Shown here: positions 6,975 through 50,769 of the stretch, one piece after another
Layout of the letters: each line of letters begins with the position of its first letter
Position numbering within the stretch: the stretch's first letter is position 1
From: Fusobacterium sp. JB019
GTDB taxonomy: Bacteria > Fusobacteriota > Fusobacteriia > Fusobacteriales > Fusobacteriaceae
Reading direction: 5' to 3'
Assembly (NCBI GenBank): GCA_030673965.1
Contig: JAUTCN010000018.1
Location: 1-64,000 of the forward strand
Length of the DNA: 64,000 bases
Translations under genes and position numbers: made by a program
Notes under the pieces: model-generated
Told to the model about the DNA's origin: nothing
Databases searched by the model: none
What the model saw: only the letters and a program-made list of their open reading frames with translations

Positions 6975-7066
6975 TGGCGGAAGTGTGTAGGAATCGAACC
7001 TACCAACGAGTTAATCGCCAAGACAGTTTTGAAGACTGCTAAAAGCACCAGCTTTTATCCACTTCC
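6975..7066 (-). tRNA. selC: tRNA-Sec (anticodon UCA)
   Basis: Read on the minus strand, the 92-nt gene starts GGAAGTGGATAAAAG and ends ACTTCCGCCA with an encoded CCA. The acceptor pairs GGAAGT with ACTTCC and the discriminator is G. The anticodon loop CTTCAAA places UCA at 7030-7032. Between anticodon and T arms lies a long variable arm (TTGGCGATTAACTCGTTGG), and the T arm reads GGTAGGTTCGATTCCTAC. The extended acceptor-T stack, long D-stem region and UCA anticodon are diagnostic for selenocysteine tRNA. No selA, selB or selD lies in the window. Confidence 0.95.
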
Positions 7067-35492: not shown

Positions 35493-35724
35493 AAAAATCT
35501 CCTTTTTAAAAATGAATAGATAAAAAACATAAAACTCACCCTAATTACTTTATTATGACTAAGAAATAAAGTGTTTAGTTTAAAAAAAACAAAAAATTTT
35601 TTTTTGAAAATTTTTGAATGAGAATTTTTCTGAAGTTACACAAATAAAAAAAATAAAATATTTTATTTTAGGAGTTGAAAAAAAATAAAAAGTATGATAC
35701 CCTAGGGTTAATTAATTGAATAGA

Positions 35725-35797
35725 TAGCTTATATAAAGGTCATAATACGGATGACAAGTTTCTACCTACTAACCTTAAATTAGTAGACTATAAGCAC
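35725..35797 (+). promoter_or_regulatory. Guanine-class purine riboswitch aptamer (purE leader)
   Basis: P1 pairs GCTTATA (35727-35733) with TATAAGC (35789-35795). P2 is GTCAT/ATGAC with loop AATACGG, J2/3 is GTTTCTACC, and P3 is CTACTAA/TTAGTAG with loop CCTTAAA. The specificity base after P3 (35788, in GACTATA) is C, as in guanine/hypoxanthine-binding members; adenine members have U. J1/2 reads ATAAAG where most members have ATAATC. The 564-base gap 35493-36056 holds this leader; 35520-35690 shows no gene. A TTGAAA/TATGAT-like promoter just upstream is weak. Confidence 0.92.
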
Positions 35798-35839
35798 AAA
35801 GATATAATGAAAAACTTCGTTGTAGCTAAGTTGCTTTTT

Positions 35840-35870
35840 CAAATGATTGGTGTAATCATTTGTTTTTTTT
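35840..35870 (+). terminator. First terminator of the purE leader
   Basis: CAAATGATT and AATCATTTG flank a GGTGT loop (35840-35862), followed by eight T. It lies 43 bases after the aptamer and is its probable expression platform. The same hairpin and loop recur in the purM leader at 44014-44032. Confidence 0.85.
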
Positions 35871-35898
35871 GTAGATGTTAAAAAAGGGAGACTAAGCG

Positions 35899-36021
35899 AT
35901 GTTTTTTATTTTTTTTATTAAAATAAAAGAAGTTTTAAAAAAGACAAAGAATAGATTAATAAACGTCATAAATATGAGGGAGAGTGTGCCCTTGATTTAT
36001 GACGTTTTTTTATTACTGTAA
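35899..36021 (+). CDS. Putative 40-residue leader peptide before purE (MFFIF type)
   Basis: A short ORF lies between the riboswitch terminator and purE. AAAGGGAG precedes the ATG by eight bases. The product starts MFFIFFIKIK and is hydrophobic then basic. The reading frame runs straight through the second terminator hairpin (35962-36011) and stops ten bases after its T-run. The purM leader has an equivalent ORF beginning MFFIFGVKIK, eight of ten residues identical. It may be a translated attenuator rather than a functional peptide. A caveat: the U-rich start codon region also forms an A-U hairpin, which could explain the N-terminal similarity. Confidence 0.45.
   Translation: MFFIFFIKIKEVLKKTKNRLINVINMRESVPLIYDVFLLL
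35961..36011 (+). terminator. Second terminator of the purE leader
   Basis: AACGTCATAAAT (35962-35973) pairs with ATTTATGACGTT (35995-36006); an inner stem GAGGG/CCCTT closes the loop; seven T follow. It lies 46 bases before purE and inside the short ORF, so a translating ribosome would prevent its folding. Confidence 0.9.
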
Positions 36022-42868: not shown

Positions 42869-42907
42869 GGTATACTTGAATTGGAAGAATACTTGAGGGG
42901 GTTAATC

Positions 42908-43804
42908 ATGGAAAAAAATATGTATACTAAAATATTGAATGGAATTAGTGAAGGAGTTTATTTTGTAGATGTTAATAGAAAAATAAATTTTTGGAATAAA
43001 GCTGCAGAAGATATAACAGGATACAGGAAGTCAGAAATTATTGAAAAGCATTGTTATAATAATATTTTAAATCATGTGGATGATAAAGGAAATCACTTAT
43101 GTATGAACGGATGTCCATTGTTGGAAACAATAAAAGATGGAAAATCAAGAGAAATGAAAGTATATTTAAGACATAAAAAAGGATACAGAGTACCAGTGAT
43201 AGTAAAAGTAATGCCAATTTACGATAAAGGAGAAGTTATAGGAGCTGTAGAAACTTTTACAGATATTTCTCCTAATAAAATGCTTTTAAAGTCAAATAAT
43301 GATTTAATGGATAATATTTTTAGAGATGAATTAACAAAACTTCCTAATAGAAAATATTTAAACTCACATTTAGATTCTGTTATGCTTAAGTATAAAAATT
43401 TAAATACTGGTTTTGGAGTAATGTTTTTGGATATAGATTTTTTTAAAAAAGTTAATGATACCTATGGACACGATGTGGGAGATGAAGTTTTACAAATGAT
43501 TGCCAAAGTATTTAATAATTCTTGTAGAGATAATGATGTTATAGGTAGATGGGGTGGAGAAGAATTTATTGGAGTTTTTGAAAATGTGGATGAAAATAAA
43601 TTAATTGAAATTGCAAACAGAATAAGAGTATTAGTAGAAAACAGTGAGCTCAATTTAGAAAAAGGGAAAATTAAAGTAACAATTTCCATAGGTGTTTCTT
43701 TGATTAAAGAGGAAGATAGTATAGGAACTCTAGTAAAAAGAGCAGATGAAGGAGTTTATTTAGCTAAAAAAAATGGAAGAAATAGAGTGGAATTTAAAAA
43801 ATAA
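42908..43804 (+). CDS. PAS-GGDEF diguanylate cyclase
   Basis: A 298-residue cytosolic protein. Residues ~1-125 are a PAS/PAC sensor (GVYFVDVNRKINFWNKAAEDITGY, then VIGAVETFTDIS). Residues ~135-298 are a GGDEF domain with FLDIDFFKKVNDTYGHDVGD and the intact active site GRWGGEEF. An RxxD I-site (RDND) lies five residues before GGEEF, so c-di-GMP feedback is possible. No membrane segment. GAGGGGG precedes the ATG at 42908; a TTG at 42881 is less likely. It separates purF from the second purine operon. Confidence 0.92.
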   Translation: MEKNMYTKILNGISEGVYFVDVNRKINFWNKAAEDITGYRKSEIIEKHCYNNILNHVDDKGNHLCMNGCPLLETIKDGKSREMKVYLRHKKGYRVPVIVKVMPIYDKGEVIGAVETFTDISPNKMLLKSNNDLMDNIFRDELTKLPNRKYLNSHLDSVMLKYKNLNTGFGVMFLDIDFFKKVNDTYGHDVGDEVLQMIAKVFNNSCRDNDVIGRWGGEEFIGVFENVDENKLIEIANRIRVLVENSELNLEKGKIKVTISIGVSLIKEEDSIGTLVKRADEGVYLAKKNGRNRVEFKK

Positions 43805-43853: not shown

Positions 43854-43882
43854 TAGGAAGTAAATAGATAGATAGAAGTTTA

Positions 43883-43953
43883 CGCTTATATAATAGCCGT
43901 GATATGGACGGCGAGTTTCTACCTGCAACCTTAAATTGACAGACTATAAGCAA
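43883..43953 (+). promoter_or_regulatory. Guanine-class purine riboswitch aptamer (purM leader)
   Basis: P1 pairs GCTTATA (43884-43890) with TATAAGC (43945-43951). J1/2 is ATAATA, P2 GCCGT/ACGGC with loop GATATGG, J2/3 GTTTCTACC, P3 TGCAA/TTGACA-type with loop CCTTAAA. The specificity base (43944) is C, so guanine or hypoxanthine is expected. The 479-base gap 43805-44283 holds this aptamer, two or three hairpins and the short ORF described below. Confidence 0.93.
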
Positions 43954-43966
43954 AAGAATACAATAT

Positions 43967-43991
43967 AGACAGGGTGACTGTCTTTTTATTT
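43967..43991 (+). terminator. First terminator of the purM leader
   Basis: AGACAG (43967-43972) pairs with CTGTCT (43978-43983) around GGTGA, followed by TTTTATTT. Likely expression platform of the riboswitch. Confidence 0.75.
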
Positions 43992-44055
43992 CATTGTAAT
44001 TATTTTGCTTTGTAATGGTTGGTGTAATCATTTGTTAAAAAAGGAGATAAATACA

Positions 44056-44226
44056 ATGTTTTTTATTTTTGGTGTAAAAATAAAAAGAATAATAATAAAT
44101 ATTTCCAGAATATTTAAACTAGTTAAGTTTGGAAATATTTTTGTGTGCAAAGAAAAAAGTTTAAAAAATTTAAAAAATAATATAGAGGTTTCGAAAGGGG
44201 AACGCTATAAAATTATTATGCCTTAG
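44056..44226 (+). CDS. Putative 56-residue leader peptide before purM (MFFIF type)
   Basis: A short ORF with AAGGAG nine bases upstream. The product starts MFFIFGVKIK, then is Ile/Lys/Asn-rich with no known domain. Its stop codon (TAG at 44224-44226) lies in the loop of the last terminator before purM, so a ribosome finishing the ORF would cover the left arm. The leader of purE has an equivalent ORF (MFFIFFIKIK). The TTTTTATTTTT-GGTGT-AAAAATAAAAA hairpin at its start can sequester the start region. Coding nature is not proven. Confidence 0.4.
   Translation: MFFIFGVKIKRIIINISRIFKLVKFGNIFVCKEKSLKNLKNNIEVSKGERYKIIMP
44097..44143 (+). terminator. Internal hairpin of the purM leader ORF
   Basis: AAATATTTCCA (44097-44107) pairs with TGGAAATATTT (44130-44140), ending in five T. 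A possible weak terminator or pause site within the short ORF. Confidence 0.5.
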
Positions 44227-44254
44227 AGCTAATATTTTGTAGCGTATTTTTTTA
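44202..44254 (+). terminator. Last terminator of the purM leader
   Basis: ACGCTATAAAAT (44202-44213) and onward pairs with ATTTTGTAGCGT (44234-44245) with one bulge and a G-U pair; seven T follow. It lies 29 bases before purM and overlaps the end of the short ORF. Confidence 0.85.
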
Positions 44255-44283
44255 TTTGAAAATAAATTTTGGAGGAAAATAAA

Positions 44284-45348
44284 ATGGTAGAAAATTACAT
44301 GGAAGATGTTAAGAGTAGTAAAAAGTATGCTGAGTCTGGTGTTAATTTAGAAGCTGGTTATGAGTCTGTAAGAAGAATAAAATCTCATGTTGAGAAAACT
44401 AAAGTTAAAGGAGTTATGGATAGCATAGGAGCTTTTGGTGGAATGTTTGATCTCTCTAGTTTAGGTTATAAAGAACCTGTATTAATAAGCGGAACAGATG
44501 GAGTAGGAACAAAATTAATGTTAGCTTTTGAAATGAATAAACATGATACCATTGGGCAAGATGTAGTAGCTATGTGTGTAAATGATGTATTGGTTCAGGG
44601 AGCTATGCCTATATTTTTTCTAGATTATATAGCAGTAGGTAAGAATTTTCCAGAGCAAATAGAACAAATAGTAAAAGGAGTTTCAGATGGATGTCTTTTA
44701 TCAGAGTGTGGATTAATTGGAGGAGAAACTGCAGAAATGCCAGACATGTATGATATTGGCGATTATGACCTTGCAGGATTTTGCGTAGGAGTAGTTGAAA
44801 AATCAAAATTAATAACTGGAGAAAAAGTAAAAAAAGGAAATAAAATAATAGGAATTCCTTCTTCAGGTGTTCACTCTAATGGCTTTTCTCTTGTTAGAAA
44901 AATAGTAATGAAGGATAATGAGTTTGACTTGAATGCTTATAAAGAAAGATTTGATGGAAAAACTTTAGGAGAAACACTTCTTACTCCAACTAGAATATAT
45001 GTTAAAACAATAAAAAAATTATTAGAAAAGGTTGAAATAAATGGAATGTGTCATGTTACTGGGGGAGGATTTTATGAAAATATTCCTAGAATACTTCCTG
45101 ATAAATTAAGAGCTAAGATAGATACTAAAGCAATAAATACTCCTGAAATTTTTAAATTTTTAGAAGAAAAAGGAAATTTAGAAAAAGAAGAATTATATAA
45201 TGTCTTTAATATGGGGATTGGATTTATTTTAGTAGTTGAAGAGAATAAAATAGAGAAAATTATGGAAGAATTGGAAAATTTAGGTGAAAAACCTGTAATT
45301 CTTGGAGAAATAATAGATGGAGAAAAAGGAGTAGAGCTAGAATGGTAA
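44284..45348 (+). CDS. purM: Phosphoribosylformylglycinamidine cyclo-ligase
   Basis: AIR synthetase, 354 residues: YAESGVNLEAGYESVRRIK at the start, then GGFGGMFDL-like AFGGMFDLSSLGY, SGTDGVGTKLMLAFEMNKHDTIG, GGETAEMPDMY and CHVTGGGFYENIPR. The start at 44284 follows GGAGG. It overlaps purN by seven bases, so the two are translationally coupled. First gene of the second purine operon. Confidence 0.96.
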   Translation: MVENYMEDVKSSKKYAESGVNLEAGYESVRRIKSHVEKTKVKGVMDSIGAFGGMFDLSSLGYKEPVLISGTDGVGTKLMLAFEMNKHDTIGQDVVAMCVNDVLVQGAMPIFFLDYIAVGKNFPEQIEQIVKGVSDGCLLSECGLIGGETAEMPDMYDIGDYDLAGFCVGVVEKSKLITGEKVKKGNKIIGIPSSGVHSNGFSLVRKIVMKDNEFDLNAYKERFDGKTLGETLLTPTRIYVKTIKKLLEKVEINGMCHVTGGGFYENIPRILPDKLRAKIDTKAINTPEIFKFLEEKGNLEKEELYNVFNMGIGFILVVEENKIEKIMEELENLGEKPVILGEIIDGEKGVELEW

Positions 45349-50464: not shown

Positions 50465-50627
50465 ATTGTATGGGAGAATGCAGTAACGCATACCGAAGGA
50501 GTCAAACTCTCAGGTGCTTTTATAAAGTGAGGACCGTACAAGGACACAACTCTGGAGAGTCCCTTAATTGGGCGCCGAAGGTGCACAGATTTTAATCTTT
50601 ATCTCTCAGGCAAAAGGACAGAGGAAA
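50465..50627 (+). promoter_or_regulatory. Tandem glycine riboswitch (two aptamers)
   Basis: Aptamer I (about 50467-50549) has GGGAGAA, TACCGAAGGAGTCAAACTCT, CAGGTG and the AAGGAC end. Aptamer II (about 50550-50625) has CTCTGGAGAG, GGCGCCGAAGGTGCAC, CTCTCAGGCAAAAGGACAGAG. The cores GCCGAAGG and CTCTCAGG...AAGGACAGAG are the glycine aptamer consensus. P1 of aptamer II is CTCTG (50550-50554) with CAGAG (50619-50623). The 436-base gap between guaB and the symporter holds this switch and its terminator. Confidence 0.95.
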
Positions 50628-50769
50628 TATAAATTATTAATATTTAAATGATTATTAGTAATTTAATAAATTTAATTATATAAATAACTAAATTTAAGCA
50701 ATTTTTCTAGAAGATTGTTTTTATATTTAGTTTGATTTATATGAATATTAAAAAATTTCCAAAAATTCT

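Follow-up and report, generated by a model that had tools for sequence, protein, structure and literature searches.

In Fusobacterium sp. JB019, the leader of purM is probably a two-stage attenuator, in which a guanine riboswitch precedes a translation-coupled attenuator of the pyrBI type that is tuned to purines. The pyrBI operon is the textbook case of a nucleotide being read through the speed of RNA polymerase, and we know of no purine-synthesis counterpart of its attenuation. Literature searches returned pyrBI and mgtM, and neither a purine-synthesis counterpart nor an attenuator of Fusobacteriales pur or pyr genes; the main text of a survey of premature terminators makes no mention of Fusobacteriales pur or pyr attenuators (PMC2965389). 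The leader lies in a window of 64,000 nucleotides, the whole stretch of DNA that was analyzed, to which the coordinates below refer. Its parts are the following:

43866-43966, plus strand: purine riboswitch aptamer of the guanine type (Rfam RF00167, with C at 43944)
43967-43991, plus strand: terminator 1, the presumed expression platform of the riboswitch (terminator scan and folding)
44014-44032, plus strand: small hairpin AAUGGUU-GGUGU-AAUCAUU, directly 5′ of the Shine-Dalgarno (SD) sequence (read from the sequence)
44041-44046, plus strand: SD sequence AAGGAG of the leader ORF, with 9-nt spacing to the ATG
44056-44226, plus strand: leader ORF of 56 codons, MFFIFGVKIKRIII...GERYKIIMP (ORF list; ATG at 44056, TAG at 44224-44226)
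44097-44140, plus strand: hairpin within the leader ORF, with a U-rich stretch after it (-11.1 kcal/mol, z -2.9)
44143-44147, plus strand: GUGUG, a candidate RNA polymerase pause (U before G), 10 nt past the GGAAAU that ends the hairpin core
44150-44188, plus strand: A-rich tract 5′ of terminator 2, a candidate ATP-sensitive stretch (base composition)
44202-44254, plus strand: terminator 2, with its stem at 44202-44245 and its U-run at 44246-44252 (-16.2 kcal/mol, z -4.0)
44284-45348, plus strand: purM, the regulated gene and first of purM-purN-purH-purD (ORF list, homologue search)

The aptamer matches the RF00167 covariance model with 75.4 bits (E 1.4e-11; Rfam gathering score 37), and its guanine-type specificity base, read from the sequence, is the C within GACTATAAGC. 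As in guanine riboswitches of the B. subtilis type (RF00167), the aptamer with C at this position is followed by a terminator, but the purM leader adds a second, ORF-coupled attenuator. Terminator 1, identified by terminator scan as a hairpin at 43967-43983 with the U-rich tail UUUUUAUUU, is weak on folding (-7.7 to -7.8 kcal/mol, z -1.5) and is near-identical in the aligned purM leader of the closest relative (G031). Terminator 2 was matched in stability by 0 of 200 shuffles, and the stop codon of the leader ORF falls inside its folded loop (44222-44227); the chance of an open frame as long as this ORF was P ~0.002 in dinucleotide shuffles. The hairpin within the ORF, possibly a pause hairpin or a weak terminator, has an equivalent in the G031 purM leader with unchanged spacing to the UGUG. 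An earlier note on this DNA had described the aptamer with its C, terminator 1, AAGGAG with the 56-codon ORF, and terminator 2, all of which were recovered where it had placed them, as was the stop in the loop of the last terminator; the mid-ORF hairpin, given there as 44097-44143, was found again within the slightly narrower limits listed above.

The nearest named PurM is that of Cetobacterium sp. 2A (74%). A GGDEF (diguanylate-cyclase-like) ORF at 42881-43804 separates purF from purM, and the extra purM leader after this GGDEF gene is present only in the window genome (G000) and in G031, while in the other genomes read purM lies directly 3′ of another pur gene. The window contains two purine riboswitches, one before purE and one before purM, each having C as its specificity base. 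The sister leader before purE (35709-36021) includes:

35709-35810, plus strand: guanine riboswitch aptamer of the purE operon (RF00167, 76.6 bits)
35899-36021, plus strand: purE leader ORF of 40 codons (ORF list), with its stop past the terminator U-run
35961-36007, plus strand: terminator 2 of the purE leader, wholly inside the leader ORF (-21.1 kcal/mol)

The order of parts is that of the purM leader, but the purE ORF crosses the entire terminator. The loop of the purE terminator 2 holds GAGAGUGUGCC, a pause-type motif. Hairpins with a GGUGU loop lie just 5′ of the leader SD sequence in both leaders (44014-44032 and 35840-35862), and another lies where the purM leader ORF begins (44059-44091, UUUUUAUUUUUGGUGUAAAAAUAAAAA). 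These hairpins were rejected as a second aptamer, as they gave no Rfam match at the gathering score and the loop is lost in the G031 purM leader, where the stem of the 44014-44032 hairpin is retained and its loop altered. Elsewhere in the window, a single glycine riboswitch aptamer (50542-50631) precedes a sodium:alanine symporter-like gene, and a selenocysteine tRNA gene is located on the minus strand (6979-7066).

We searched genomes from the family of the window genome for PurE, PurM, PyrB and the purine riboswitch, and scanned the leaders for ORFs that have an SD sequence and whose stop falls in or close to a terminator. Purine-synthesis leaders with this layout number 44, come from 42 genomes in 8 genera, and stand before purE, purL, fhs or purM; six further ones, before purL or fhs, belong to a second family (f4) within the order. 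Leaders of G021 and G020 are near-duplicates, and because the sequences are related, p values across genomes overstate independence, though genus-level means agree in direction. One ORF-terminator match outside the set (L016, in G052) probably arose by chance and was left out. The separate fhs gene of the window genome has a different structured leader (L003, about 1725-1870), by eye a candidate ZTP-type riboswitch.

The combination of leader ORF and terminator was not found with transporter-type purine riboswitches, nor was the layout found in the permease-type riboswitch leaders fetched from f4, and of the remaining riboswitch leaders of the first family that were scanned, most had no such ORF. 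The layout was likewise not found in the purine leaders read from G002, g7, g8 and G043, in whose purine-synthesis leaders the riboswitch is present and the ORF absent. These leaders would suit an explanation in which the riboswitch and terminator 1 do all the regulation, with the ORF and terminator 2 being fortuitous or a remnant; this is extremely unlikely given that the module is conserved over 8 genera as well as in a second family, and is retained where the riboswitch is missing. The genomes G049 and G050 have no RF00167 match, yet their leaders keep the ORF and terminator, and the purE leader of G046, from which the riboswitch is missing, keeps them as well. The persistence of both elements in these three leaders indicates that the module is independent of the riboswitch; it goes with purine synthesis, and not with the riboswitch.

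What this module conserves is a frame that stays open into the terminator, while the identity of that frame is not conserved. The frame was open up to the stem in 33/33 leaders tested, the other two frames together holding about 8 stops on average, and combining one median P per genus gave a product of 2e-12. The stop itself was located 5′ of the stem in 3 of the 44 pur leaders, in the left arm in 16, in the loop in 16, in the right arm in 6 and past the hairpin in 3, positions that are conditioned on the choice of the leader set by ORF-terminator overlap. Their spread from before the stem to past the hairpin rules out a stop in the loop as a conserved feature. The proposal of the earlier note that a ribosome near the stop would cover the left arm is borne out in that all 44 pur leaders, selected on overlap, stop in, just before or beyond the stem, and in E. 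coli ribosomes are known to repress a terminator when a stop codon lies no more than about 27 nt away (PMC4824070). In genus g4, three species (L143, L144 and L156) have a UAA stop immediately at the terminator stem (UAAUCUGRGUA), with different peptides.

The purM orthologues of G000 and G031 share their first 11 codons and then differ by indels of 12 nt and 13 nt, with the result that in G031 the frame is shifted relative to the hairpin and the stop has moved from the loop to past the U-run, with the frame still open. The stop does not keep its position relative to the hairpin in this orthologue, a point that the earlier note had proposed to check; the outcome named there as counting against the proposal, a frame lost while the hairpins are kept, was found only in part, as the frame is shifted by the 13-nt deletion but remains open through the hairpin. 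Similarly, G036 and G037 enter the hairpin in different frames, both with stops in the loop. Between G000 and G031, the aptamer P2 helix carries a C-G to U-A double change, and in terminator 2 a pair differs as U-A versus C-G, which would be compensatory if the centroid pairing is right.

The peptide is weakly constrained, with a pooled pN/pS of 0.45 for the leader ORFs and values of 0.03-0.14 for purE in close pairs. Weak peptide constraint and frame shifts are predicted by translation coupling and not by a nascent-peptide sensor, and they exclude a conserved leader peptide. Attenuation specific to codons or to a nascent peptide (trp or tnaC type), in which an amino acid or a metabolite would serve as the signal, is very unlikely: although the peptides are basic, with Lys making up 25% of the residues before the stem, and an MFF-F start recurs in genus g1, the C-termini are unconserved, the frame shifts relative to the hairpin in both the purM G000/G031 and the G036/G037 pairs, and Gly, Gln and Asp each account for <=2.4% of residues. 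Antiterminator pairing between the left arm and ORF sequence 5′ of it was no better than in shuffles (duplex energies, mean z -0.13). A C-terminal arrest sequence like that of tnaC was not found, the C-termini differing between the G000 and G031 purM leaders and between genera, and trp-type attenuation was rejected on the lack of both Gly/Gln/Asp codon enrichment and an alternative antiterminator helix. Weakly constrained peptides together with missing antiterminator pairing thus argue against trp-type or arrest-peptide control. From the earlier note's description of the purM leader as classical translation-coupled attenuation added after a riboswitch, the translation-coupled attenuator 3′ of the riboswitch is retained, and the word classical, in the sense of an amino-acid or trp type, is not, as codon or peptide conservation and an antiterminator are missing and the leaders are A-rich where pyrBI-type leaders are U-rich. 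Ribosome-coupled attenuation in the pur leaders is likely and well supported, and we lean towards ATP/GTP as what they sense.

The nucleotide in question is suggested by a comparison with pyrB leaders found in the same genomes (n = 38), which have a layout like that of the pur leaders but are U-rich, as pyrBI-type attenuation by UTP would predict. In the pyr leaders, U reaches 0.47 vs. 0.29 in coding sequence (p 3e-11) with A at background, while in the pur leaders A reaches 0.53 vs. 0.39 in coding windows from these genomes (p 1.6e-8) with U at background. When paired by genome, pur leaders exceed pyr leaders in A in 31/32 cases and fall below them in U in 32/32, and both compositions have their maximum 30-45 nt ahead of the stem, at 0.58 for A in pur leaders and 0.61 for U in pyr leaders. 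The AT skew of the pur leaders is -0.15 in the upstream untranslated stretch and +0.30 in the ORF; as the stretch before the ORF is slightly U-rich, the A skew is local to the ORF. It is also not a by-product of stop avoidance, since a stop-free random frame would give ~0.38 A. Across the family, the pyrB leaders (L242-L267, with L268 from the window genome) resemble the U-rich leader ORFs of the pyrBI type that overlap a terminator.

The A enrichment is uneven among genera. In the genus of the window (g1), A is only mildly raised over the whole ORF (0.45 vs. 0.41), and the effect is seen only between 15 and 45 nt 5′ of the stem (A 0.57). In these 30 nt the purM leader has 63% A, which corresponds to an upper tail of 0.021 of coding windows, and the two A tracts of the window reach only tails of 0.011 and 0.021. 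Leaders of g4 and several of f4 are not A-rich, and pyrB leaders of g3 also hold a Lys/A-rich block, such that A-rich codons are not exclusive to pur. Among the features of a pyrBI-type attenuator, an SD-led ORF reaching the terminator is present at the sequence level, no conserved peptide is needed (as indicated by the pN/pS and the frame shifts), and an NTP-rich tract is present in the pur leaders overall, weak in g1 and absent in g4.

The same anatomy and weak peptide constraint would be expected of a general translation gate, which reports whether ribosomes closely trail polymerase (through initiation capacity or amino-acid supply) with no specific nucleotide signal, so that pur genes are transcribed only when translation is active. 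The modest A-rich tract of g1 and its absence in g4 also fit such a gate. It is nevertheless unlikely, as it leaves unexplained why A and U contents are opposite in pur and pyr leaders at a matching position, why the module is confined to operons for nucleotide synthesis, and why GUGUR is enriched in pur leaders only. With expectations taken from shuffles that keep base composition only, GUGUR occurs in 40/44 pur leaders (expected 8.5) vs. 2/38 pyr leaders (expected 4.8), AGUGUR around the terminator in 35/44 (expected 2.5) vs. 1/38, and GGN6TGYG, an extended form of AGUGUR that equals the consensus elemental pause, in 19/44 (expected 0.5) vs. 0/38. At such a consensus, bacterial RNA polymerase pauses ahead of adding G+1, which has been reported as the most important element (PMC9291695). 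These motifs, a second feature particular to the pur leaders, were not part of the earlier note. In purine riboswitch leaders without an ORF, the motif is mildly above chance (13/84, expected 5.4).

AGUGUR was not found in the purM terminator of the window, where only the mid-ORF GUGUG is present. The 10-nt spacing of this GUGUG after the mid-ORF hairpin, which also occurs in G031, is close to the hairpin spacing of 11 nt at the hisL pause (PMC10268239). The purM leader resembles hisL and trpL in having a candidate U-before-G pause with a hairpin about 10-11 nt upstream, but pausing there synchronizes amino-acid attenuation, while the purM leader is without an amino-acid codon run. In f4 the motif occurs as GUCUAAGU, and the strict G-10 Y-1 G+1 consensus is often missing. 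The sequence GUCUAAGUGU recurs in purine terminators of two families (among them L145, L147 and L152 in the first and L302 in the second), often enclosing the stop UAA.

AGUGUR, or GUCUAAGUG, near the terminator may instead be recognized by an RNA-binding protein or other factor, with the ORF merely keeping the leader open. The pur-specific excess of AGUGUR is compatible with such a site, as are its occurrence in the left arm, the loop, the right arm or just 5′ of the stem and in all three reading frames, and the recurrence of GUCUAAGU in f4, where the strict pause consensus is missing. So variable a structural context would, however, be unusual for a protein site, the extended motif is identical to the consensus pause, and the conserved open frame would have no explanation, which renders this alternative distinctly unlikely.

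The two-stage model is favored by the open frame, the restriction to pur operons, the riboswitch-free copies, the weak peptide constraint and the base contrast between pur and pyr leaders; from these we infer leader translation, polymerase pausing, an ATP/GTP signal and the direction of control. In the first stage, high guanine would lead the riboswitch to stop transcription at terminator 1, while low guanine would allow polymerase to proceed into the leader ORF. With ample ATP/GTP, polymerase would then outrun the leading ribosome, such that terminator 2 folds and transcription ends. When ATP/GTP is scarce, polymerase would pause in the A-rich tract and at U-before-G sequences, and the ribosome would catch up and cover the left arm of the hairpin, permitting readthrough into purM.

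This mechanism has two partial precedents. In the E. coli pyrBI leader (pyrL), a short translated ORF overlaps an intrinsic terminator and contains a nucleotide-rich tract, and termination is prevented when a ribosome follows polymerase closely (PMC5021804; PMC3641672). The pur leaders share the short ORF overlapping a terminator and the nucleotide-rich tract, but are A-rich rather than U-rich, have pause motifs in which G is next, stand in series with a guanine riboswitch, and belong to purine operons of Fusobacteriales. In the mgtM leader of Salmonella mgtCBR, adenines of the leader ORF are conserved while the peptide is not, and ATP is proposed to be sensed via polymerase-ribosome coupling as part of a tandem attenuator (PMC3641672). 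The adenine-rich ORF, unconserved peptide and tandem arrangement are common to the pur leaders; however, high ATP raises mgtCBR expression via alternative stem-loops, whereas in the pur leaders low purine would be expected to do so by blocking the terminator.

Extended to the order, we lean slightly towards an attenuator that senses ATP and/or GTP via polymerase pausing and ribosome catch-up throughout the purine-synthesis operons of Fusobacteriales, paired with U-tract (UTP) attenuators on pyrB in the same genomes and, in series with the guanine riboswitch, forming a two-input gate. The paired pur and pyr leaders of each genome represent a natural experiment, with the same layout and opposite tracts, in which what determines the sensed nucleotide can be tested directly. 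If the model is correct, the logic of pyrBI would have been reused for purines with nothing altered but a short ORF's sequence, and stacking this attenuator on a riboswitch would let the supply of guanine base and that of nucleotide triphosphates be read separately.
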